Shown here piece by piece: positions 1 to 42,739 of a DNA stretch of 64,000 nucleotides. The notes under the pieces were generated by a model. The model did no database searches, was not told the DNA's origin, and saw only the letters and a program-made list of their open reading frames with translations. The stretch is taken from NCBI GenBank assembly GCA_025617745.1, contig CM046870.1:29717927-29781926 (forward strand), read 5' to 3'. Each line of letters starts with the position of its first letter. Within the stretch, counting starts at the first letter, position 1. The position numbers were made by a program, and so were the translations under genes. The DNA is from Heliocidaris erythrogramma. Its lineage: Eukaryota > Echinodermata > Echinoidea > Camarodonta > Echinometridae.

Positions 1-312
1 TTTAACCAATGATACGCCATAATCGTACATTTTGTTATGACAATTAAAATTATTTCACTTAAATCAAGATAAAATAAATCTCAAAATACCACCCAGAAAG
101 TTCAAGGAAGGATGGGGACGGAAGTGGGAGATGAAAAAAAACAAATAAAATCTAAGCGATTGATGCGCGGATCCAAGGATTCTGTTGTGGGGGGGGGGGG
201 GGGCAGTTCATTCTATAATGTGAAAGAAATGCGAGAATAACGTTGCGTAGCTCAATCAAAGTTCCCCAGAGCTGTCCTCCCTTTTTGAAATTTTTGCAAA
301 GGCTGAAAAAAT

Positions 313-383
313 GTCTCCGCCGGGAATCGAACCCGGGTCGTTGGCTTAGAACGCCAATGCCTTAACCACTAGACCACGGAGAA
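313..383 (-). tRNA. tRNA-Arg (anticodon UCU)
   Basis: The minus strand folds as a 71-nt cloverleaf. The D stem is GTCT/AGGC with D loop AGTGGTTA. The anticodon stem is TTGGC/GCCAA with loop GTTCTAA, giving anticodon TCT (reads AGA, arginine). The variable loop is CGAC, and the T arm is CCGGG-TTCGATT-CCCGG. The acceptor pairs TCTCCG with CGGAGA, but position 1 is T opposite C at 72, a mismatch where a G-C pair would be expected. A G at position 32 is also unusual. No CCA is encoded, as normal in eukaryotes. It may be a functional gene or a slightly decayed copy. Confidence 0.75.
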
Positions 384-482
384 GGGTTAGTGGTTTCGGC
401 GACACCAGATTCAATTGACCGACAGATTTGACAAATCTTCAACCTTATTAATTAATTCCTTTGTTGGGGGCAGGTGAGTTTT

Positions 483-539
483 GTGGTTAAGGCATTGGCG
501 TTCTAAGCCAACGACCCGGGTTCGATTCCCGGCGGAGAC
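483..539 (+). pseudogene. 5'-truncated tRNA-Arg(UCU) copy
   Basis: This copy is identical to the minus-strand tRNA at 313-383 from the D loop to the 3' acceptor strand CGGAGAC. The first 14 bases, including the 5' acceptor strand and most of the A box, are replaced by unrelated sequence. It cannot form a cloverleaf and should be inactive. Confidence 0.8.
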
Positions 540-692
540 ATTTTTTCAGCCTTTGCAAAAATTTCAAAAAGGGAGGACAGCTCTGGGGAACTTTGATTGA
601 GCTACGCAACGTTATTCTCGCATTTCTTTCACATTGTATTTATTCCCACGAGATTTGCCAAAGCTGTTGTATATGTTATTTCCTTACACTTG

Positions 693-713
693 TTATATAT
701 ATATATATATATG

Positions 714-777
<64 letters not shown>
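693..777. repeat. (TA)n microsatellite
   Basis: About 85 bp of nearly pure TA, interrupted only by ATGTATGTA near 711-720. It produces several spurious open frames of alternating Tyr-Ile, which are not genes. The following bases to about 1300 hold C and A homopolymers and nothing recognisable as coding. Confidence 0.95.
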
Positions 778-780
<3 letters not shown>

Positions 781-1320
781 GTTAATCCGATTTTTCAGGT
801 GCCTTTTGAGGAGCACAAAACCTAAATCAAGGCCACACTGCATTGGTTTGATGAATGAGGTTGTGCCCCTCCCCCCCCCCCCGCAAAAAAAAAACAAACA
901 AACAAAAAAAAAACATTTAAAGATATTATGGATGAATAGACCTAGATCTTTCATGGATAAAAGTTTTGAAAAAGAAATGATATGGTCATTATTAACATCA
1001 TAAATCTAAATCCAACGAGGCACCTTTGGAGGTCACTGTATGAATTTAGAAGATGCAGATCGATGCACTTTCCTTGTTATGCAATATGCAGGGTTGCCTG
1101 GATGATCCGCCCTTAATTAGCCCCCACCTACGCCCTTCTCATTTTAAAATACCAAATGTTATTTCTTCTTCTTCTTTTTCTTCTTCTAGTAATCTTTAAC
1201 GGGCTATGCAGCCTATCACAAAGAAGAACTAAAGATTGCAAGCTGTGCAAGGAAGAGTAATGTGGTTTATTGAGATTTGTTGATATGAAAGATGTTTTCG
1301 GCGTCAGGAGTAGACATCTG

Positions 1321-1461
1321 CAGGGGAGCGTTTCATGAAAAGAAGTTGTCGGATATTTTATCCGACAACTGTTATAAGCTACTGACATCCTTGCATTTGA
1401 TTAGCTGAGAGCGAATTTGTCGGATAAAATATCTGACAAGTCCTTTCATGAAACGCCCCAC
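1321..1461. mobile_element. MITE, GTTTCATGAAAC-end family
   Basis: The element starts CAGGGGAGCGTTTCATGAAA and ends TTTCATGAAACGCCCCA, which are inverted copies. Inner inverted motifs TTGTCGGATA/TATCTGACAA also pair. The core AGCTACTGACATCCTTGCAT is shared, in reverse orientation, with the copies at 8531, 10471, 24554, 54467 and 62861. It has no coding capacity. Confidence 0.8.
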
Positions 1462-1739
1462 AGAGGTGTAGCCAGGATTTCTTCAGTAGGGAGGCACTGG
1501 GAGGTACCGCCTCTGTAGGGGGCACACGGAGGCAGTTTCGTAGTCCTCTTTTTTGCTGCATGAGGTTGAGGGGTAGGTATCGTCACATTGTCATTGTACG
1601 TGGGGGTAATTTACATCTTTTTTCACTGGGGGCATAATGGGCAGATCACTAAATTGCTGCTGGATTTTTCATTGGGGGTATCTGCGGACAAACAAATCTG
1701 TTCATTATATCACTGAAAAGTAATAGTAAAAACGACTGG

Positions 1740-2012
1740 TAGACACGACTGTCGATGCCGGGAATTCCCCATGCCATGCGCATGCCAGAGCATCGCTCTG
1801 AGCTGTTGCGAAGCCGCCGCCGACCCAGGCGCGGCCCGGGCGCGGCGCGCTAGTTTTTAGGCCTGGGTCGATCTGGAGTCGTATCGTTCTAAGTTACTGA
1901 GCCTGAGTTGATCCATGTTCGATAGAAAGTCGTCAAGTATTGATCACTGTAAAAAAAAAATCCCGACAATCCTGAATCACGTCTTTCATTTGGAAAGGAA
2001 TCATCATTGAAA
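1740..2012 (+). promoter_or_regulatory. Upstream region of the SUMO gene, GC-rich core
   Basis: About 1790-1850 is a CpG-dense patch in otherwise AT-rich DNA, some 160-220 bp before the SUMO ATG. That fits a CpG-type promoter and 5' untranslated region, but no TATA box or splice structure is evident. Part of it (about 1860-1945, with AGCCTGAGTTGATC and TGTTCGATAGAA) resembles the end of the hAT-like element at 5060, so some of this region may be transposon-derived. Confidence 0.35.
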
Positions 2013-5000
2013 ATGTCTGAAAATTCCTCGAATGTAAGTTTATTTATCAGAGACTAGAGAGAGACAGTTTCTAAAAGTAAAATTTTAAAAATACTTTAAA
2101 AAGTCTTTAGTAAAACTATTACTAATTAAGAATTTCATAAAATTTTTGTTAGTTGAATCTGCTGTCTGCTGACAAGTGACATCATGTGACATGGCTGAGG
2201 CTGCTGAAGCTGCACTTTCAACTATCAATTATTCAACAAATTAAAATCTAAATAATATGTCAATATGTCATGATATGTGTTGCGTGATGCGGCATTGTGG
2301 ATGATTGCCTAATTTATATGGCACAACACAAGCATTGTACTGCAGTGAGTGCAGGGAATACTTAAGTACCCTAAATCCTAATATAGTAAAGGCCAAAAAT
2401 CATAATTAGACAGATGAAATTATGAGGATAATCCACAATTCCAGAGAAAACACATCTCTAAGTTAAACTTCTAATTTTGTATGACATTTTTTGTGAGCTA
2501 ACCTAATTTTTGCAAGACATGCATGACATGTGGTCTGGAAATAGAATATGAAGAAAGAAAACCACCAATTTCAGTTTTAGTTTTGATTACTATAATGATA
2601 TTTATGATTTCTAATTCTATTACTTGTATTAGTATCATTTTAATTGTTTCAGAGAGAATGTACTACTAGTGTTGACTAAGTTGAAATATACTTTTCCACA
2701 TGTATTTCTGTGATTTCTATTACTTGGTGTGGGGAGATGTCTAAATATTCTGCATAGATTTCTGCTATTTAATTTTCAAAAGAAATGTGGTAGGCTTACT
2801 CACTTCTTTTTCATTGATCATCTTTGAGTCCTAAATACTTTAAAAGAAGAGTTTGAATTTTACATTACTCAGCCTTCGACTGATGGTAGCTATAGCCAAG
2901 TTAGTAGATATATAATTAAGTAACTAGGTTTCATACAATTAATAATAATATTGAATGACTTGTCTTTCATCATTTCATGGAACACAAGTGTAAGCCTATA
3001 TCGCACTCACTTTGAAAATATTTCACTCGTTGTGCCAACTCGTGAAATATACTCATAGCTCGTGCATTATACCCTTGTAATGTATCCCACTCAAGGCCAT
3101 TCAATATTATATAATTATTACCTATATAAGGCATTTTAGCGGCGCAATAAAAACGCATATTTTTGTCCCCTTGATATGCGTGTGCAATATGTGGCCATAT
3201 TGCATGGAATGCTGAATTCCCCATAGATTACTGTACTAAATTTGCCGTGCAATATTATGTCGTATTTTGTCTGTTCTGTTTGCGTGCGCGCAAATATAAT
3301 GCAACGCATACACACATTTTTATTAAGTTCTAAATCATTTTCATGTAGGGTATAGGTAATAATAATTATATTGGATGGCTTTATTTCATGGAATACCGGA
3401 AATATTCCACTCGTTAGGGCCAATATTCTCTGGTATCCCATTCAGAGCCATCCAATATAATATAAATATAGGCAGTTACACATAGCCAAAATATTTACCA
3501 TGACCCCCTCCTCCCCCCCCCCCCCCCCCCCATTTGAACAAAAAAAAATTATATAGAAACTGTATGTTACACTATGTGCCCCATCTGTCCTAGAATCAGA
3601 TTGGTGTATGACTGTTGTTCTTATATTCTCCAGGATATTAAGCCTCAAGATGAAGCAAATGAAAATCCTTACATCAAGCTTAAAGTCAAGGCCATGGTAA
3701 GTGACAGTAAAATGTTGATAATCTTTATATTATGTTATGTTCTTTTGTTTTAATTCTTAATTCTGGTATGAAATTAGTAAATGACACCATTTTAAAAAAG
3801 AAATAAGATTGTCTGTATGCAGTGGAACCTCGTTATAACAAACTCCTTGGGACCAAGGAAATTACCTCTTTATATTGAAACCCTTATTATATCAGGGCTG
3901 AAAAACAATAGAATGCCAAGAAGTGGGACCAGCAAACTTACCTTGTTATAACCAGAGTTTGTTATTTAGAGTGTTCTTTATAACGAGGTGCCACTGTACA
4001 TATATGTTAGGTGTGCTATAGTATTCAGTCACACCGTTTCTTTTATAACAGCTGATATTTCTTATCCAAATTGATGATTGTGACATTCATGTTAGTCTAT
4101 GCATTAAAGGGTACTAATCACCTAAAAATATTTTGTTCTGTATGTTAGAGGTTCCATGTCCTTATACTATATTCAAAATATGGGCTTCAAATATCACTTC
4201 TATAAAGAGATATTGCATGTTTAATTACACACTCTATAAGCGTAAAAGCGACTTGTGAGTAGACTACTCGATGCACCCGTACACGCTCTCCAAGATAAGG
4301 GCACTTTCACAAATTATTTTTTTTAGGTGATTGGTACACTTTAAATGTTCATCAAGCACAAAATGGAGGAAAGTCACACTTGTATATTTTCCATCAAAGT
4401 TCAAACCTGAAACTGTATTTTCTGGTTTAATGTAATCATTAGTATAACAAAGACATTAGAGAGGCAATGTGCATTGTAAAATTATGAAACCCAAAATGAA
4501 TGTTACAATTTACAAAGTTTCCATGTGTCTCAAAATCTATAAAACATCATCAGAACTGGAGGGCTTTTTTTCCCCCCGTGCAAAATTGTTGTTGTGTTTA
4601 AGTTAGTCTTCAGTGCCAGGCATGTTTTGAGTTCTTATTTTCAAGTTCTTTTTTCTAAGTTCAAAGTTCAATTCAAATAAAACTAATAGACAATGTGATA
4701 AGGTGATAAAAAAACTGATGTTCACCTTACACGGGATATGACGAACGTTACAAATACTTGTGAGATCCCAGACGATCTACCAAGAATCAACGTAGAAGTA
4801 CAAGTAGAAGTCAAGTACAAGTAGCAGTACAAAAGGTTGCTTGGTACTTTGCTCTTGCTCTATTAAAATTCTTTTTGGTATTTAATTAGAATCTATAGAA
4901 ATCTGATTTTGATTTTATTATACTATTTTGAAGGATTCCTCAGAAGTGCACTTCAAACTGAAGAAGGCGACGCCATTCCAGAAGCTCATTACCAACTACT

Positions 5001-21420: not shown

Positions 21421-24400
21421 CTATCTACGACTGGTCATTCTCCTTGTCTGCCTCCTATGCTCGTCTCGTTCCCGCTGCTTCGCATCAAACCACGGCAATT
21501 CAAACTCACTGCAGGAGAGATGGGAACGGTCAAAGATGGGCAATATTACTCAGTTCATATTATTGCATCATTCAATGGCAAGAAACTGCACATCATTATC
21601 AGGATAACAAAACTATGCATCTCATGTGCTTCTGTCAAACAATATATTGAACTATTTTACAATTATTTTTAATAAAGTAATAACCTATGATAATGCATAA
21701 AATGAATTATGAGAACAATGGCCATTTCAATTATTTTTTTTATGTATATACCCGTAGATGACGGCCGCAACAGAAGTTTTCATGTAAATTTATTGAGTTA
21801 TGATTGTGGCAGATATTTGTATCTGTACTCCTCTGGTCATGTAGGGATACCAATTAAATTTACTGAATTGGTCTTAAAAAACTCCCAGATATGTTGAAGC
21901 CCCATATGTTCTATACTACATCCTGCCTAAAAATACCTGAAACCTAGAAGCATCGGGGCTTGGAATCAGACAAATGCTTGCAAACTGTCATCCGTATTAA
22001 ACAAACTATTTCTCAGATTCTGTAACTATTCATTTAATGTTCTTCAAATCAATGGAACTTAGGAAAGGAAGGAACAAACGGATAGCTTACCTAGGTTTAA
22101 CTGAAGGGACTTGTACGCCGAAAGTAATGACTGGAATCGTATCACACATCTCAATATATTCAGCTACAACAAAGTGAAAGGAAAACAACAACAGTCGTTA
22201 ATTCCATGAATGTTTTAAAAATGTTTTACATAAAATCCATCAGAGGTCAAAAATGTAGTACATTTTCCAGAATCAATTTGTGACAAATCAAGGGGGGATT
22301 TTTTTGTTCCTTCATTCAACAGCTGAAAAGATAAGGCACATATCGTATGGTGAAAGCTGGAAGGGAGTTACCTAAAAAGATACGAGTTAATGCCCTCCTA
22401 GCTTTCAGCAGACGATTTTAACCCCTACCATGCCGAGGGCGGCGAATCCGCGAATCCCGCCCAAATGTTGGAGTGAACATTTTATTTAGGCTCAGAAAGG
22501 CTTGAAAATTCTCCCTCATACAGAAACGTGTGCCTTCAATATAAAGTTTATTCCTATGCAATGTATCTTTGCCCAGTTTGCTCAAGAAAAAACTCATTAA
22601 AAGTTAATATTTAGTTATTGAAAGTTCATTTTTGACAATTGCCCAAATAGCTGGTGGCATGGAAGGGGTTAAATGAAAAATTCACAAATAAGCTTGAAAG
22701 ATATTATATAACAGATTTACAAGGGTGCAAAATATTTGGCATACATGTAGATCTTGGTAAATGCCTGAACCACTTTATGCATCTATGTCATTGTTCTATC
22801 CAGTAAAAGTTCTGGGAGGTGTTTTTTTTTATTCTTAGTAGCAGCTTTGCTGGGCAATTTAACTACAAAGGGAAGGTTTAACCATCATTTTCAGCGTAAT
22901 AAATCATGGTTAGTGTGAATGTGTCCATTATACATATACAGTCAAACCTGCTTTACCGACCACCTGTGTAGAAAGACCACCTGTCTATAAAGACCACAAT
23001 TTTTGTTTCCCCTGAAAAGTGTTTCTCATTGAAATGTGTATTAAACGAACCTGTACATAAAGACCACCTGCTCATAAAGACCGCTTTTCTTGTCTCCCTT
23101 GAGTGGTCTTTATAGACAGGTTTCACTGTACTAATAATTGACATCTGACAAATCAAGAGTTTCAAAGTCTTTTCCTCTCTTTTTTTTTCTTTAATTTCAG
23201 CAGCATTGTTTCTCAATTCAACTTGGGAGATCTTACCATCATTTTCAGTGGAATAAATCATGGTTAGTGTGAATGTGTCCATTATACATATACTAATAAC
23301 TGACATCTGACAAAACAAGAGTTTCAATAAAGTCTTTTCCTCTTTCTTTTTTGTTTATATTTCAGCAGCATTGTTTCTCAATTCAACTTGGGGGGTCTTA
23401 CCATCATTTTCTCCTGGATAAAACGTGGTTAGTATATGCTCCCATTGAGCATACTCCCTCTGCTTCTGTTTATTGACCAGTCTCTCGTGTTCTCTCAGCT
23501 CTCGTATCCTCTGGATATCCCATCTCTTCCGCTTTCTCTCGTCCTGCTCCAGCTTGCAGTGGCGTTGCTCAAACACTGCCTCGGTGCACTCCTGACATAG
23601 CAACCATAGAAATTTACTTATAATAACAAAGTGTACCAATGACCTAAAAATATAATTTATGCTAGAATGTTTAAAATGATTAAAATCAACCTCAAATATC
23701 TTACACTGGCATTCTGCGGGTTAAAAGTTTAGTACAAAAGAAAATAAAGGATAGTATAGAAATGCCCGAACGGAACCTAACTTGGAATTGGGTTCCGTGC
23801 GGCCCCTATAGCTTCTACTAATCTCTTTTTCGTTGAGCATGACATTGTTTATAGTAGTATTAATTTTTACAGAAGTAATATTTGTAGTAAAGGGATATGA
23901 TGTTGGACCTCTGACATATGAGCAAAATATGCTTTAATGATAGGTACCCTATGGTCTATGCAATATACATGTACTTCGGCCAGCTATTCACAAAATCATA
24001 CCAAATAAGTCAGTTTAAACTAATAAACTCCACCTACATGTAAAATTAACATATGGAGTTACAGATATCAAATGACTAGAAAATCACACGCCATTAATGC
24101 CATAAGCATCGTTACACAATTAAATTCTCTTCTCTCTCTTTCATTCCCCAAATGCTGTATACTGTGGACATTTATAAAGTTTTCATGTTCATGTTGACGG
24201 GTAGATGTCCTTAACCCCTACCATGCCGTGGGCAGCAAATCCCGCCCCAAAATGTGAGTGTTGAACATTTTGTTTAGGCTCAGAATGGCTTTAAAATTCT
24301 TCCTGATACTGAAACCTGCACTTCCAATATAATGTTTATTCCTATGCAATTAATCTTTGCCCAGTTTGCTCAAGATTAAAACTCATTGAACATTAATATT

Positions 24401-27400
24401 CAACTCATGAAAGTTCATTTTTGACAATTGCTCAAAAATCTGGAGGCATGGAAGATGTTAATGCCTCCCGCCTCCCCCCTCCCCCACCCCCTCTTTCTGT
24501 TTAGTTTTACATTCCTACATTCATCTTCTTCTCAATGTCATGGAATTACAAAGCAGGGGAGCGTTTCATCAAGTGTTTTGTCAGTGATTTTTAGTGACAA
24601 ATTTGCTCTCAGCCAATCAGATGCAAGGATTTCAGTAGCTTATAACAGTTGTCGGTAAAAATCACTGACAAAACACTTGATGAAACGCTCCCCAGAATGC
24701 TAATATTATGATGATGAATTTTACCTCTGGAGCATCTGAGGATGTACTTGGTGGAATGTTAATGACTCGCCATGACGGAACTGAACGACAAAGGGAAGAG
24801 GAAGATCAAGAAAAAAGTAATTTATTAAATGGTATGAAAAATGTACCAAAACACACACAAAGCAAAAAAATTAGGGCAGAAAAAAAGAGAAGACAATGTC
24901 ACAGACTGTATTTTTCTCACTTCGGGCAACAGAGTGTGCGATGAGGAGATACACACCTTGATGTCCAACCCAAAGAAATGGGTAATTCAGGATTAATGCT
25001 CTTCCTGATGTTTTAATGGTTCTCTATAATACCAGATCCCAAGCAGTGATGTCAGAGACCCCTGTATGCCTTACAGTCAAGACTGTGACATTGATAACCC
25101 AAGAACAGTTTCAACTACATCACTGATTCCAAGAAGATGCTCTCCTCAAGAAGCTATTGCATCTGCTGTAACAGTATAAATTCTTAACCTTTTTGGCCGC
25201 ATTTTGGGGCCTCTTTTGGGCTTGGCCAATAGTTTTCAGAGCTTTTCTCCTAAAATGCATTTCTTTGTAAGTTCTGTTACCTCCAATAATGCATACATAT
25301 ATATTCATAGATTTCAATAGGACTGTTAGTGAACCATAATATTACCTTCATCATGAAGGCTTCATGGAGGTCTATGTGTATGAACCCAACCGCCCCCGCC
25401 CTCCCTGTTTAGAACCGCTGTCCTACATGTACATGTCGTGTGTTGAGAGCCAGAAGGGCGTTAACTCATACGTTAACTCATAGTTAACGCCATTCTGGCT
25501 CTCAACACACGATGCAGTAGTACAGTGGAACCTCGTTGTAAAGATAAAGAACACTGTAAATAACAAACTCTCGTTATAACAAGGTGATTTTGCTGATCCC
25601 ACTTCTTTGTATTCTATTGTTTTTTAGCCCTGATATAAGAAAGTTTCAATATAAAAAGGTAATTTCCTTGGTCCCAAGGAGTTTGTTATAACAAGGTTCC
25701 ACTGTACACGAATAGGAGAGAATCAATGCTCAGTGCTCACCCATTACAGCTTCCTCATCAAGCAGATCTGCTTGAGGAACCCTCAGGTCGCTTAGGCATG
25801 GGTACATCACTTCTGTACGGTGAAACTTCTCTTCGTCCTTCGACTCTCTTGACTCTTTACTATCTTGTCTGTTTGCGCTTTTCTTCTCCTCCTTCTTTGC
25901 AAGTTTCTCCGCTCTCCTCTGTCGCTTGCTCAGCTCGGTGTTGCTCGATTGCACCGAAGAGATGCTGGAGTTCAGGTTACCGTGGTCTCTGACGGGGGTG
26001 CCACTCCCTCGACCCGATGACTGCCTCCCAGTGCTGTGGATCGATGGTTCGAGTTCTGATCTACGCTTTCTGAAAAGGAATTGGGTAATCTTGAAATTGG
26101 TAAAAATGATCAAAACTCAGCAAAGTCCTTATCAATCTGATGGAATCTATCATGTATTAATTGGATATACAGTTAACTTTGTATTTAAGTCGAATCTGTT
26201 GGGACCATGAAAAATAGTTGGACTTATGCAAAATTCGACTTACATGTAGGAAATGTAAATATCACGGTTTGCATACACTGTAGTTTGGTCAAAAAATTTG
26301 ATTCGATTTAGGTAAAGTTCGACTTACGCAAGGTTAACTCTATTTTCAAACCACCGTTTTACATCACTTACATGTACAGCACCTATGCTTTAATAATACA
26401 AAGCAAACATGGTCATCAATTCCACATGTATACGTGTACTGTAACTTCCCACAGGCAGAATCAATCAAGCTTGTGAAATGCAGTAGTTCGATTCCGTGCA
26501 GAGTGTCCAGCACGACATATGATGGATATTTCATCCATAAATGAAAATCTCTTAATATGAGCATGACTAGTGGTAGTGATACCAGAAAACACCATTATTT
26601 AATGGTCACATCAAAAGATTTTTGGATGAAACATGTTGAAAAAAGACATGTCGTACGAGACACTGTATGGGATTGCCCAATACACCAATAGTTATAGTGT
26701 ACAGAAAGGGATAGAGAAGCAAAGCTGGGGTTGGGGAAGACATCGCTTCGGCAAGACCTACCTTTTCTGCACTGGTGAATCTAAAATCTTCCGGGGCCTG
26801 CCGACTGGTCGATGGTTATTGTTGTTATTGGTCTGAGGTTCAACCTTCTCAGCTAGATGAGTTCTTCTGTTCATGCGCTCCAGTCGACATTTCAGCTGCA
26901 GAAGCAAAGGAGAATGTTGCATTGTTTAGTACACGTATGTGAATAAATGTGCATGCAGGTGTACAATGGCAAATGTATGTTAACCCTTTCAGGACAGGAA
27001 TTATTCAAGGGCTAAACTGATCACATTTCATTCTTGAAATTGGCAACAATAATACTTTTCTGTTAGTTCTACATGGTTCTAATAAGGTGTAATGTCTTTA
27101 AAAACAATATACATGGTTAGATATTTTGTCATTTACAGTTGATAAAATTGCCAATTTTGATGAAAAACAATGATTTTGAACTTCTCTCAATGTGTTCCAA
27201 TTTAAGGATTTCTAAACTTATTATCGTTTTTTTAAATTCCTGGCATCAAACGCAATATGGTCATTCAATAAAAATGGACATAGTTTGTGCAGAAATTTTT
27301 GCTCTTTCTACTCGTGCATCTGGTATATAAGTGCTGAATCAAAAGTTATTGAGCCAAACCACAAAATGTGGTCAATTGTCTCGAAAGGGCACAACTCCCA

Positions 27401-30400: not shown

Positions 30401-33400
30401 TTGACAAGAGAATCTGACAATGGAGACATTCTCCCAAATGGGAAAGAGTTTCCCACATCAGCCGTGCGCCTCTACTGTATATTACATGTACCGGTACATG
30501 CAGAACAGGTCCGAGCTAACATGGTACTCAGGCAAACTCAGCCTTGGCAGAAAATCGTGGCCGAGTTGGCTCAGAGATTGGAATTGAACGCAAATACTTC
30601 TGTTGATTTTTGCATGAATTACATGTTCAAAACACTTAAATTCAATATTTGATATCAATGTGTAAAATGATTAGTAAAGAAGTAATAATGTTGAAAATTG
30701 AAACCAAAATTAGGAAAATCCGGGACAACCCGACCACCGGACAGCTCGACCCAAGACAACTCGACCCAATACTCTGGACAACTCGACCAGGTCGAGTTGT
30801 CCAGAGTGGGCTGCGTTTTCGAACAACTCGACCTACTTTTTTTCTTCTAACATGAACAGAGTTTCACAGGGCTTTTGCTAAACAGTCGGGTAACGTTGCG
30901 TCGCGTTGGTAGAAATTTTCGAACATTTTTCAGGAAGGCGTCTTCAATTGAAAAAGAGTCCATCTCAGTATGATTTTCCCCGTTTTGTGTGCCACAAACT
31001 GCTTATGTATCTTCATATTTTATCCTGAGGTATTTAACAAGAGTTATAATGTTAAACAATTATAGACAAAAAGAAAACTTTCTTTGTATTCTTTTTCTTG
31101 TTTTGTTTGTTTTGTTGAATGATGAGCGTCCAATCTGTGTGCGGATGTAGCTCTATTTCTAAATCTTTAATCTTCTATCATATCTTTGTCTTTTCTCATC
31201 TGATTTTGTTTGCTTTATATTAACTATGATAATTTTTTAGTACAAAATCCCCCCCGCAAAAAAAGCCTTTTCTCCTTCATTTCTTTAAATTTTGTTTGTT
31301 TTATCCAGTAGAGCTAAGTGATATACATAGAAATTCTACACAGGATTTTGGAACACTGTCTCAAACATTAATTATGATGATTTCTGCATTTTTTTTAATC
31401 CTATAATTTTTTTCTTTCCACCTTTCCTTTCATTATGTTATTCTTTGATCCCTTGTATCATCTTGTCTTCCCTCTTTCCCAATGATACTTTTTTTTTTTT
31501 TTTTGCTTTCCATCTTTACTTTCGTTATGTTATTCTGTGATTCCTTTTATCTGTTCTTCCATCTTTTATATTACTCTTTATATTCATCCATCTATCATTC
31601 CTTAGTCTATCTTTCGTAGTGTTATTCTTTTTTGTCCCCGCCGAACGAAGTTCGCGAGGGGACTATGAAACGAACTCCGTTCGTGTGTGCGTGTGTGTGT
31701 CCGTCCGTCCCATATGTGCTCAAAAAGTTAGAAAATGCTATACTTCTTCGTCATTTCTCGGCCGATTTTGATTCTGATTGTTTTATCTGATAGGGCTGAG
31801 TGGGGGCTTCCTAACTTCTACACAAAATCATGAAATTCATCAATTATGCAAATTTATGCAAATTTATTCAAAATCGACGAAAAATGCTACTTCTCTATTT
31901 CACACCGTATTTTGAATCTGATTGTTTTATCTGATAGGGCTGGGTAGGGGCTGTCAAACCTCTACACAGAATTTTGAAATTCATTAATTATGCAAATTTA
32001 TTGTAATTTATTCAAAATCAACAGAAAATGCATTTATAATCATAAAACATTAATTTGATAATTCATTTCTCACATTTATCTTCAAGGTTCTATCAGAAAT
32101 TACATAAATTAACAGCCATTCCACAGATCTACACTTCTGGCGGGGACATAATTACGCATCGCGTAATTACTAATTCAGTTGTTTTTAATCCTTTTATTAA
32201 TTTTTTCTTTCCACCTTTCCTTTCATTACGTTATTCTTTTATTGCTTTTATCATTTTGTTTTCCATCTTTCATAATGTTACTATTTATATTTATTCTTTT
32301 TATCCTCTTTTTTATTGCTTTCCATCTTCACTTTGTTCTTTGTTCCCTTTTATCATCTTCTCTTCCACCTTTCTTCATGTTTATATTTATCTTTTTATCA
32401 TTTTTCTCTCTATCTCTCGCTTTGTCATTTCTTGCTTTTATCCTTCTATCAATTATCTTTCCATCCTTCCTCTCGTTATGATATTCTTTGTTTCCTGTTA
32501 TCATTTTCTCCCCCACCTTCCTCACGTTAATCTTTATCCTTCTATCATTTCTCTCCCTGTCTTTCTTTATATAAGTTAAACTTTTTTTATCCTATCATTT
32601 CTCTCTCTATCTTTCATATTATTCTTTTTAAAATCATTTTCTGCTTTCCATCTTTACTTACTTTCCTTAAAACATTCTTTGCTTTTATCCTATCATTTTC
32701 TTTCGTTATGTTATTCCTTTATTCAAATTATCATCTTCTCTTCTATCTTTCCTTATGTTACTCTTAATATCTTTATCCTTCTATCATTTATGTCTCTATC
32801 TTTCTTTATGTTATTCTTTGTTTTTATCCACTTATTTTTACTTTCCAAGTTTCCTTTTGTTGTATTCTTTGTTTCCTTTCATCATATTTTCTTCCATCCT
32901 TCCTACCCTTCTATTCTCTCTTTATAGTTCATGTTTTTCTTTGCATTATCCTTCTATTGTTTTTCTTTATTCCCTTGTTTGTCGTTTGTAGCTTGAAAAC
33001 GGGAAAAATCATACTGAGATGGACTCTTTTTCAATTTGTCCCCTTGAAGACACCTTCCTGAAAAATGTTCGAAAATTTCTACCAACGCGACGCGACGTTA
33101 CCCGACTGTTTAGCAAAAGCCGTTTCACAGCATGGCTACAGAAGCCATTTTCTGCATCAAGTAGGCCTATGTTGATATGATATTGATATGATATATGATA
33201 CCCTAACCCTAATGAAATTTGTTAGAAGAAAAAAAAGTAGGTCGAGTTGTCCAGGGTATTGGGTCGAGTTGTCTTGGGTCGGGCTGTCCAGTGGTCGTGT
33301 TGTCCGGACCCCAAATTAGGAGCCTACACCCAAACACATTAGGTGGGACACCGTCTACTGTACTGTCATGCTGTGTACGATTCCAGTGTAATCCTATGCA

Positions 33401-35363: not shown

Positions 35364-35970
35364 AATGACATTTTTTTGCTTTAAATATTGTTTTTCAGAT
35401 ACAATTTACAAGTCATATACCACATATTTATGAAAAAAGTGTATCTAAATCTTGTACGACTTTCCATTCTGAATTAGTTCCTCATGACTTTTATTTTTTA
35501 CTTGATTCACTTCATTTGTATTATAGTCATTATTTTAATCAGACAATTCAAACCTGCTATCAGCTGGAAGCTGCACATGCTATTCAGCAAGGCCTTGAAC
35601 AAAGTTCAAACATGATACATGAATACAAAGGAAATCACAGAAAACATTACAAAGATTACAAAAATAAAATGAATACGTCGGATACCTTGTACATAGCGCA
35701 TGTCTCATGTCTGGATCAAAATATAGTGCATTCTATACCCGTATAGGCTAGGCCTCATAGACCTACCTTAATAAGGTATTATAATTATTACAACTTTTAT
35801 AGGAATCTCATTCATTTCCTAATTATAGTATCAACACGAGGGTAGTGGGCAGCAAAATATCCAGATACTTCCAAGGCTCCAAACTTTATTATTCAACTTG
35901 GGTATAGAATCGATTTTTGCAAGCCCATGCAGCCTCTTGTGAGGGCAAGCGAAAGGAGTTTTGCATATAT

Positions 35971-36909
35971 TAACACGATTGCAAAGACTTTCGAAAAATC
36001 AACCTCGGCGGGCAATTTTATTAACCTTGTCCATCACCTTCAGGAAAGTGCGAGCATTATGTATGAGTTATACTTCTTGCTATGACGTATTACCAGTGGC
36101 GTATTATGGCGCCCGCGGGCAAAAAAATGAAGGTGCGCCCCCTCCCCCGTGCCCAACCAGTTATTGTGCAAGCGAGGGAGCAAAGCGACTGAGTGGCAAA
36201 TTCTTTGCATATTTTAACCCTAAAAAAACAAAATTTCTTGCGCATTTTACCCGAGAAATTTTGTAAGATCACTGCAATTAAGCGTTAAAGAAGAATGTTG
36301 TACATTGATAAACGGCTCTCTATTCACTCACTTCTAAAATTCGGAGCAAAATTAACGAAAACCCTTGAGAAATAGTCGAGGAATTTAGCAAGTCCACTGA
36401 AAGTTGAGATTTCTTTTAAAATAATGTTGAACCTCTGCAAATGTTGTTGTATGCACTTATCATCCTATATTGGGGTGCAATTAATATTTAGCAAGAGGCG
36501 GATAAAACTTACATTATAATTATTTGGCGAACAAAGCAACAATTTCATCTTTATTTTTCAAATTTTGAACCCTTAAAAAAGCTAACTATATACTGCGGGC
36601 GCGAAATTACGAGATCCTAAAAGAAAATAATTATGCAAGGGAGGAAAGCGACCGAGCTTTAGAAAATGTTTGCATTTTAAATTCTCAAAAACTGTATAAT
36701 GCATTTCCTGCCGATTGGGGGGGGGGCGCAATATCCTTAAGGAATATGATTTTTTTTCTTCATCTCCCTTTTTTTTCCCTTTGTTTTGCGCTTTTTAGAT
36801 ACGCCACTGCATATTATGTATAGTCTGATCATAATTATTTTATATGGGATATAATAATAGGTATCACTTGCCCAACAGTTGATTTCTCCAAAGTCTTTGC
36901 AATCGTGTT
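35971..36909. repeat. Outer inverted repeat enclosing a hAT-like element
   Basis: AACACGATTGCAAAGACTTT at 35972-35991 is exactly inverted at about 36890-36909, and the match extends inward through AAATCAAC and GGGCAA with mismatches (about 40 bp arms). Between them lies the CAGTGGCGTA element. This may be an older MITE split by a later insertion. Confidence 0.7.
36094..36809. mobile_element. hAT-like element with CAGTGGCGTA ends
   Basis: CAGTGGCGTATTATGGCGCC at the left and TACGCCACTG at the right. Flanking 8-mers CGTATTAC and CATATTAT agree at six of eight positions, a decayed hAT-type duplication. Interior motif AGGGAGCAAAGCGACTGAG recurs as AGGGAGGAAAGCGACCGAG at about 36640. No transposase frame. 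Confidence 0.75.
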
Positions 36910-37189
36910 CATTTTGAAATTTACAAAGGCGTCACAAAACCCACCCAATCTACGTTCCAAAACTAACGACCGCACCCACAACCACACTTCCAGATAAAGT
37001 CCCTGGTGGAATAGTTAAGACTAAGATCAAAGATCCATGAACAACTCCAAGCCTATTTTAAAGTAACGATTCGTTAAATTCAGCATCACTGTAGCGTAAG
37101 CAAATCCTGAAAAAGCGAGTAGCGACCGAGCGAAAAAAATGCAATTTCCTGTTTTAAAGTTTGTATATTTTTATCCTATATAGAGCACC

Positions 37190-38100
37190 TTTAAAGGAGA
37201 ATTAACCTAAAAAAATACAGACGAAAGTGTTCAAAGGTGTTATTTATTCCTACTTGTTAGACTATATGGCTTCGCGTCAAAATTTACGATATCGATACGA
37301 ATCAAGATTTTCTGAGCAAAATTTATCATCTGCCCGCAACATGTATCGTCTGCTAGCAGTACATGGGGCCGCCATTTTTTTTATGTGTACATGAAGATTT
37401 TCTTAATCCAAATGCCCAATTGCCTCTTTCAAAATTAAAAACCCGTTTGAGATTAAAAATATAGAATAGATATGTCAATTTATTTTTAAACTGAAGATTT
37501 CCTTATATATTTCTGTTGAAAATCGATATTCGCTTAATAGAAATCTATTTTCTCGATACTGTGACGCATGGGACGGAGCAAATTAATTCAAATTTATGGA
37601 TGCTTCTTCCCCGAGCATCTATAGCGGCAAACTATGCATTCACCTGCTTTCGGATAATGGACTTGAAAAGTCAGAATGCATGCTGCATATATTATGTTCT
37701 TCTCTGTTTGGCAAACCCAAGAAAATAGATTTTTGTTAAGCAAAACCAGACAATTTAAATATATAATTATAAAGATTTAATTTTTATAATACATGTAAAC
37801 ACCCACTTTATATTTTTTTGTCACATATGGGATTTTAGGTAATGAAGAAAAGCAATTTAGGTTTTGGATTCAAAATATCTTCTTGACTGGAACATTTCTC
37901 AATGGTTCATGTATAACTCCAAATCAGCAAGAAAATGGCAGCCCCCATGGAAATGAGGAGGACGATAACGGGTGTTGGAATATCTTTATTTACACCCTTT
38001 TCTGATTTTCTTATTAGAAAATGATTTAGGCCAACAAGTAGGAATATTACACCTTCCAATATAAGTAAATTTGTAATTAGGGGTTGATTCTCCTTTAAAT
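37190..38100. mobile_element. 0.9-kb fold-back type element with TTTAAAGGAGAATYAACC ends
   Basis: Left TTTAAAGGAGAATTAACC and right GGTTGATTCTCCTTTAAA are inverted. Further in, AAGGTGTTATTTATTCCTAC pairs with a right-hand GTAGGAATATTACACCTT. An 80-codon hydrophobic minus-strand frame at 37907-38149 falls in the right arm and has no recognised relative. Confidence 0.75.
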
Positions 38101-38368
38101 ACACGCACTGACAAATCCAAAAAGAAATTGTTGAAAAATATTGGCTCAAGATTGTTTAGGGCTCTCTTGCATAAAAAGTTGCGTTTGACTCAACACTTTA
38201 TGCAAGAGGCCCCATGCAAGTCAACGTTGGGGGTGACTGGGTGACATGCATGAGAGGAGTCGTTTTATAGCGACCGAAAGGAACCCTTTCCCCCGAATAG
38301 AAAATTCGCCTTAACCATGCATGTTAACCTTATAAAAATAAACAGAGGTGTCGATCCGTGTTCACGAT

Positions 38369-38370
<2 letters not shown>

Positions 38371-38421
<51 letters not shown>
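38371..38421. repeat. 51-base G homopolymer at the edge of the assembly gap
   Basis: A pure G run ending exactly where the N gap starts. The true length is unknown; sequencing collapse is the likely reason for the gap. Confidence 0.9.
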
Positions 38422-38921
38422 NNNNNNNNNNNNNNNNNNNNNNNNNNNNNNNNNNNNNNNNNNNNNNNNNNNNNNNNNNNNNNNNNNNNNNNNNNNNNNN
38501 NNNNNNNNNNNNNNNNNNNNNNNNNNNNNNNNNNNNNNNNNNNNNNNNNNNNNNNNNNNNNNNNNNNNNNNNNNNNNNNNNNNNNNNNNNNNNNNNNNNN
38601 NNNNNNNNNNNNNNNNNNNNNNNNNNNNNNNNNNNNNNNNNNNNNNNNNNNNNNNNNNNNNNNNNNNNNNNNNNNNNNNNNNNNNNNNNNNNNNNNNNNN
38701 NNNNNNNNNNNNNNNNNNNNNNNNNNNNNNNNNNNNNNNNNNNNNNNNNNNNNNNNNNNNNNNNNNNNNNNNNNNNNNNNNNNNNNNNNNNNNNNNNNNN
38801 NNNNNNNNNNNNNNNNNNNNNNNNNNNNNNNNNNNNNNNNNNNNNNNNNNNNNNNNNNNNNNNNNNNNNNNNNNNNNNNNNNNNNNNNNNNNNNNNNNNN
38901 NNNNNNNNNNNNNNNNNNNNN
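38422..38921. other. Assembly gap (500 N)
   Basis: Exactly 500 N, probably a placeholder size. The right side begins with the palindromic CCGCGGTAAACCGCTGCGAT / TTTACCGCGG at 38927-38955, which may mark a further inverted-repeat element lost in the gap. Confidence 0.98.
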
Positions 38922-38955
38922 ATATGCCGCGGTAAACCGCTGCGATTTACCGCGG

Positions 38956-40906: not shown

Positions 40907-42739
40907 GGGGACTCGAAAGATATGACGAATTCTTTGTAATAGGTTTATTTTTCCCCTTAAGACCCGTTAAAATGGCAAAGAACAAGTTTAGACCAATATG
41001 TGTTTGCCAATTTGGAAGTAAACGCATACATATTTGTTAATCATCCGTGATCAAACATTGCCTACTATATGTTGTGTATGAGAGTAGCATCTCCGACCCA
41101 TATTCAAGACGGTGGACGGGGGGGGGGGGGGGGGGGGGGGGTGGACATTTGTGGTAAGCATACAGGCAAATTAACCTATGTGATATCAAAACAGAACTCA
41201 TGTAGCTCACTGGCGCTTAATCAGTCAGTAACATTATCTACACGACGCTTACGGTATTGAAACATGCATGCTACAAGACTGAAACCTGTAGGAGCTGATT
41301 ACTGATGAAAACTGTCACCAATATGTCCCCTGTCAATGTTCATGTTCAATGGAAGCTCAGTGTCAATCCCACCAATAATCCAAGACTTCGAACAAAACAA
41401 AAATATTGAGAAAGCTTGAAACGAAACCTGGGTAGAATATTCTTAGAATCTCAGAGTTCGTAATAAACATGCTAGAAAAGTGTATTATGGATACATATAG
41501 ACACGTAACCATTATGATAGGTCATGGAAAACTCTTATTTACAAAAAGAGGTGGACATGCAGAAGAGAAAGGAATGAGAAAGCAGTTCTGGACGCAATGT
41601 TGTTTGCTGTGGCCCATCTTATTCACAAATTCGATTTGCATTTCAATGTACTTCAATCAACCGTAATGAATAGAATAACTTATCAAAAAATCAAACTGCC
41701 AATCGCCTTAGGCACACCATAATATCTATTCGACTTTCGCATTAAAGTACTATATGGATATGATACTGGCGTGACGCTGTGCTGTATATTTTCTATTCAA
41801 AATGACTGGTAAACACAAAGTAAATGAGCAGCCCTTTCTGCGTTCTATTAAAACGCTATTTGTTAAGGGCAGGAACTATTGATCCTATGATCGGAACAAG
41901 GTCGTATTTATTCAACAAAGCAGATGGAAATCTGAGCCTTATTCGACTATTTTTGTGAGAGGTTTGCGCATTTGAACAAAACTCTGGTTTTAAGATGTAG
42001 CTGTCTTTGAATGATCGAAATGATACGGCCCTGACGGCAGTGGTCCAATCAAAATAAAAACAAGAAACATATAAACAAAAAAGAAAAGAAAAGAAAACAA
42101 AATATCATCTGCATAGTGATTACGCATTTGATATGTGTTTGAAAGTCGCTTTGAAAAAGAGAGGGTTTGAAACCACAATAAAAAAGCTTAAGTTGTTTTC
42201 TGTCAAAAGACACCAATACAAGTTCACCCTGTTTTTGCTTTCTTCGCACTTTGCCTTTATACTAACGACGTATTTGATTTATTTGCGCCCCAGTATTTTC
42301 GAGTTTTGACGCTTTGCCTTCGAAATTGAATCCGTTCGTGTTGCTTCCTGAAGAACGGGGTGTGGGTAATTCATGACTTGCACGCGTAAATACAGGTACT
42401 GCTTGTCTTCTGAGGAGGCCGCCTCGGTCGCAGACGAAACCCTCCAAATGAGCGTTTAATTTCACTTTGGAGTGCTAACAAGAGCAGGGCATGCCCTGTC
42501 GACACAAACCCGACCCCTTGTTTTGGCTTGAAGAGGTGCCACGGTTTTGGTTAGGACCGTGATAAGCTGGGTTTGCTGCCGGCGAAGACGTATTGCCCCC
42601 TGCTTCTCAGTATGGTATCATGGCGGTGGAGGGTTGCTAGCCCGTCGCGAGGACATTTGGAGATCTGATTTTTCTTCGGTTGCAAGTAGTGATTGGAAGA
42701 AGGGGATCGAAGAGAGAGAGAGGGGGGGGGGGGGAGGGG

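Follow-up and report, generated by a model that had tools for sequence, protein, structure and literature searches.

The window, the whole stretch of 64,000 nucleotides from Heliocidaris erythrogramma that was analysed, contains on its minus strand a series of coding exons that probably belong to MSL1. E1 and X4, when joined, matched Pfam PEHE PF15275 (E 1.3e-12, 48.8 bits against a cut-off of 34), and the best two PDB chains were both named male-specific lethal 1 homolog (2y0m_B, E 7.7e-09; 4dnc_D, E 0.0019), suggesting that the gene is MSL1. The N-terminal MSL1 dimerisation coiled coil (PF16801) scored under its cut-off of 25 (18.9 bits, E 0.0013). KANSL1 is a related PEHE protein, and according to an excerpt of PMC6607013 it binds MOF through its own PEHE domain. 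The locus in the window is referred to as copy A and a second locus elsewhere in the assembly as copy B. Besides an N-terminal piece, the partial gene model comprises the following coding exons:

25748–26069, minus strand: X2, the nearest upstream MSL1 coding exon found, with an in-phase reading in A and B; its donor position is a predicted one
23402–23591, minus strand: E1, the PEHE-coding exon of MSL1, with an open frame and the Pfam PEHE match, ending in phase 1 at ATG/GTAAGA
22091–22163, minus strand: X4, the next MSL1 coding exon, which joins E1 in phase and is identical in copy B
21421–21508, minus strand: X5, the last MSL1 coding exon (SEFELPWFDAKQRERDEHRRQTRRMTSRR, stop), read in phase with X2-E1-X4 in A and B

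A tandem array follows E1 in copy A, in the order E1-I1-E2-I2-E3-Ib, and it contains the following features:

23296–23401, minus strand: I1, the first intron copy, from the E1 donor to E2, with 1/106 substitutions against copy B
23307–23308, minus strand: a competing upstream AG (CTCTTGTTTTGTCAG), which gives a 70-nt exon with a frameshift and TAG
23300–23301, minus strand: the AG proposed as acceptor; copy B and I2 each have AA here
23237–23299, minus strand: the candidate exon, 63 nt, open, phase 1-1, of which 23237–23295 is the E2 part
23130–23236, minus strand: I2, the second intron copy, beginning GTAAGA, with 6/102 substitutions and 3 gaps against I1
22939–23128, minus strand: a miniature element (MITE) of 190 bp, CAGTGAAACCTG...CAGGTTTGACTG, covered by 39 of 41 listed genome matches and aligned with six other copies
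22883–22938, minus strand: E3, the third exon-like copy, followed by GTTAAA, with 2/58 substitutions against E2
22770–22882, minus strand: Ib, the third intron copy as aligned, only the first ~50–60 nt of which are still I1-like

The preliminary description had read this array as a three-fold repeat, in units of about 165 bp, that covers the last part of E1 and the first part of the intron behind it. The end of E1 and the intron start do recur twice more, but the units are not uniform: the second was offset by 165 nt from the E1 unit (TRF reported 23129-23433, period 165, 1.9 copies), while the third lies another 354 nt on instead of 165, since the array is split by the 190-bp MITE. E1 differed from the three E copies at 15/55, 18/57 and 11/54 sites, with 2, 1 and 4 gaps, respectively, and in each of the three tests the alignment score was matched by 0/1000 dinucleotide shuffles. 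Homology of E' further upstream into E1 was rejected, as 518/1000 shuffles matched the score. The likeness of I1 and Ib over the first 45–50 nt was met by 5/2000 shuffles; over the whole 106–113 nt it was weak, with the score met by 16/1000 shuffles, and blastn similarity of Ib extended to 22822. The donor of the third unit is GTTAAA. Relative to E1, the reading frame of the E copies is shifted by a net 2 nt, indicating that they were not retained as coding sequence in the E1 frame. By blastn, no further copies of the unit were found in the window beyond the three units and one A-rich match of 28 nt (42069-42094, E 1.9e-4). The array is flanked by another repeat, present in two copies (22418-22672 and 24211-24461) that are 77–91% alike by segment and lie ~1.79 kb apart.

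The element that splits the array is a TA-type MITE, being short, with terminal inverted repeats, a TA duplication and many copies. Its TA target-site duplication lies at 23129-23130 and 22937-22938, and the site in A is the TA between I2 and E3; the element is absent in B. At least 41 genome-wide matches were listed for the region; two of these were the MSL1 loci and 39 covered the MITE, 38 at 95–98% and one at 89%, indicating at least 39 copies. The ends were confirmed by aligning seven copies, that of the window and six others. In its length of 190 bp, its TA duplication, its terminal CAGT...ACTG repeats and its many copies, the element resembles the Tc1/mariner-type MITEs, and we take it to be of this TA-flanked type. 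Other repeats of the window include a very high-copy element at 214-716, which accounted for more than 100 of the 287 genome matches listed for window 1-3300, many of them at 97–99% and often clustered, and a 144-bp unit at 31765-32031 in 1.9 tandem copies with 86% matches.

We searched the genome (1.06 Gb, 26 contigs) for further copies of the locus. For the exon side of the array, one other match was listed, namely copy B, which lies on the same strand of the same chromosome at a distance of 506 kb. The A/B homology was collinear with interruptions over window 3316-38388 and continued left of the window to 18 kb; the first 3.3 kb of the window matched the B side in pieces at 86–99%. Substitutions between A and B amounted to 0.97–3.8% per aligned site in 11 blocks of at least 1 kb. 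The X2, E1, X4, X5 and N-terminal queries showed 1, 1, 0, 0 and 2 A/B substitutions, respectively, and no indels; the joined X2-E1-X4-X5 protein was open and identical in A and B, and the N-terminal piece showed one residue change (R to C) with a stop in neither copy.

The array of copy B contained two units, E1-I1-E'-Ib, and the A array was 354 nt longer, MITE included; the E1-X4 intron spans 1238 nt in A and 869 nt in B. Copy B lacked the middle donor, I2, the MITE and the proposed AG. Its GTCAATTATCAG stands at the position of GTCAGTTATTAG in A; that is, the frame-breaking upstream AG is common to both copies and the proposed AG is absent in B. The absence of the duplication elsewhere, which the preliminary description had named as grounds for setting the candidate exon aside, holds for the extra unit and does not hold for the older E', which B shares. 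The single substitution between A and B in I1 (1/106) is the base that creates the proposed AG, and Ib differed at 7/113 sites. All 7 differences in Ib fall within its first ~55 nt, adjoining the array. This contrast, with I1 unusually alike and Ib unusually different, counts against the reading of the array favored below.

The following feature, at which the duplication ends, bears on whether A and B are alleles or paralogues:

38422–38921, unstranded: an assembly gap of 500 N that ends the A/B duplication; homology stops and starts at the gap

On the left side, the A/B homology ended at 38388, leaving 34 nt to the gap; on the right side, it started at 38922, the first base past the gap, corresponding to C18:29225976 onward, with 97.7% over 5.1 kb. 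A further 9-kb piece, C18:29246000-29254999, matched at 98.5–98.8% at a place more to the right. In the 30 kb beyond B (C18:30267000-30296999), no match of at least 500 nt to the sequence that follows the gap was found. The contigs left and right of the gap thus appear to overlap by roughly 0.5 Mb, over C18:29.226-29.756 and 29.757-30.268 Mb, as sampled at the two ends. A homology that ends at the gap is the pattern expected if overlapping contigs of two haplotypes were joined one after the other. We therefore regard A and B as most probably alleles, with high confidence, judging from the arrangement of the assembly. Two further observations concern the same place. A run of 52 G precedes the 500 N (window 38370-38921), and window 35613-38384, single copy in A before the gap, occurs in B as several head-to-tail repeats (C18:30261759-30267962).

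It is rather unlikely that A and B are true paralogues, produced by a tandem duplication of ~0.5 Mb with the gap at its junction. Such paralogues would be expected to have the examined exons open and to share a chromosome and an orientation, as A and B do; however, the gap matches the end of the homology, at the exact base on the right and within 34 nt on the left, and a divergence of 1–4% is presumably of the order of heterozygosity in outbred animals. An assembly gap between duplicated pairs is among the hallmarks of false duplication given in the available part of PMC9516828, and 500 N were found here at the end of the homology. The case resembles the heterotype false duplication of that source, as far as excerpted, in its near-identical gene copies on one scaffold with a gap between them; it differs in that haploid read depth and heterozygous k-mers are the other hallmarks there, whereas the present pair was judged from the assembly. 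The overlap at the gap, probably one of unpurged haplotypes, would touch the other genes there too.

A and B share E1-I1-E'-Ib, which shows an old duplication of the E1 3' end and the intron start, and a further I plus E' unit distinguishes A from B. The units are not equally old, in agreement with an old duplication and a later second one of the intron-plus-E' unit; a single recent triplication is ruled out by the unequal divergences of the units. The copies of the second unit differed at 8/160 sites, compared with 113/6254 between A and B nearby (Fisher p 0.010). As the unit copies are more divergent than A and B, the extra unit may be older than the separation of A from B, and copy B may have lost it rather than A having gained it, although the sites are few.

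The middle unit of copy A had been proposed to retain a GTAAG donor and, with the AG at 23301-23300, to define a 63-nt exon that is open in phase 1-1. Both observations were reproduced: the donor, at 23237/23236, is the same as that of E1 over nine bases, and the AG and the middle donor do define such a string. Its inclusion would add 21 residues, VISICIMDTFTLTMIYSTEND, between GEND and AEYI. An open frame in phase 1-1 and a donor with the same nine bases as that of E1 would be expected if haplotype A carried a young alternative exon. However, the AG is absent in B and in I2, and since both have AA, the proposed AG is a single base change private to I1 of A. A functional exon would be expected to keep its splice sites in related copies, but copy B, the one related copy available for comparison, lacks both the donor and the proposed AG. 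In addition, the upstream AG at 23308-23307 competes with the proposed acceptor, lying 7 nt before it and directly after CTCTTGTTTTGT; this AG is also present in copy B and I2. The stretch from branch point to acceptor is normally AG-free, according to a passage of PMC7317903 on human data. I1 contains only one branch-like YTNAY match, TTTAT, which also speaks against a young alternative exon. On the other side, the pyrimidine content is 0.62 ahead of both candidate AGs, the same as at the acceptor of E1, although it reaches 0.88 at that of X4; with the nine-base identity of the donors, the middle unit may be recognised.

A chance count took in every GTAAG of the window, on either strand, that has 150 nt or more upstream of it (n=85, the proposed site included). 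An open, frame-keeping AG...GTAAG exon of 45–81 nt in the same phase preceded 14/85 sites. Frame-keeping candidates at 14/85 sites are not rare by chance, so that finding an open one is in itself weak evidence, and this argues against a young alternative exon. With other length limits, such candidates preceded 22/85 sites for 27–99 nt and just 5/85 for 60–66 nt; the latter count weighs against an inert array.

The insert had also been placed right before the segment that contacts MOF/MSL3. It does lie inside the PEHE domain; however, the position falls within the MSL1 fragment aligned with 2y0n_E rather than right before it. 2y0m chain B, which we take to be from the MOF complex, aligned with residues 4–38 of an 87-residue query (E 7.7e-09), and the insertion point is downstream of this part. 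2y0n chain E, presumably from the MSL3 complex, aligned weakly with residues 51–87 of the same query (E 0.12) and ranked below five sulfhydryl-oxidase chains (E 0.017–0.11), which look like chance matches. With a short query, it ranked first, again weakly (E 0.036), and in this weak alignment the insertion point lies between EPDD and V. The insert lowered the PEHE Pfam score from 48.8 to 41.1 bits, still above the cut-off of 34, which counts against a young alternative exon. In the best-ranked literature on MSL1, PEHE and alternative splicing, as represented by excerpts, no extra exon in the PEHE domain was found, which is no proof of absence.

Taken together, we hold with good confidence, from what the two copies of the locus suggest, that the array is a decaying, stepwise tandem duplication in an MSL1 intron, polymorphic between the individual's two haplotypes and most likely spliced out. 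Of the two possibilities that had been offered, a young alternative exon or an inert duplication, the inert one is favored, as B is without the middle donor and the AG, and I2 has AA. Unequal exchange at a short identity that the E/I borders have in common, GAAAATGATGGT, would have added or removed the extra unit and would thereby place a good donor behind E2. The most likely mechanism is neutral turnover of the tandem repeat within the intron, with insertion of the MITE in addition, and the two alleles would appear doubled in the assembly because two overlapping haplotype contigs (~0.5 Mb) were placed end to end across the N gap. The sole productive join would be that of 23402 to 22163. Any recognition of the middle unit would probably make use of the upstream AG and so lead to a stop codon.

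It is unlikely that unequal exchange instead gave the relict exon a working donor on one haplotype and thereby created a polymorphic nascent PEHE exon, whether as a 21-residue insert or as a poison exon. As a poison exon, the 70-nt exon would sometimes enter transcripts of A, introduce a stop codon and lower MSL1 output from haplotype A. The upstream AG preceded by CTCTTGTTTTGT and the full donor are consistent with this, as is an in-phase TAG within the first five codons, where the exon reads ...GENDDVSY-stop; however, such an exon would be allele-specific because copy B lacks the donor, which counts against it, and we regard it as quite improbable. Very improbable indeed is the young alternative exon itself, in which the unit gave the donor, a base change gave the AG and 21 residues were added in the PEHE domain of haplotype A.

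If the exon were used, the two haplotypes of one animal would represent a conserved chromatin gene with and without a nascent exon. On the favored reading of a decaying intronic duplication, the MSL1 case is chiefly a caution, as a striking candidate exon fades once the second haplotype, elsewhere in the assembly, is read. In the potato RdRp gene, a tandem duplication across an exon-intron border was described, and the new intron was reported as detected, according to the available part of PMC4974935. The MSL1 array is like the potato case, as far as that excerpt describes it, in that the repeated segment crosses a splice border and brings splice signals along. It differs in that the MSL1 copies, known from sequence alone, are intronic and that a second haplotype is without the extra unit.
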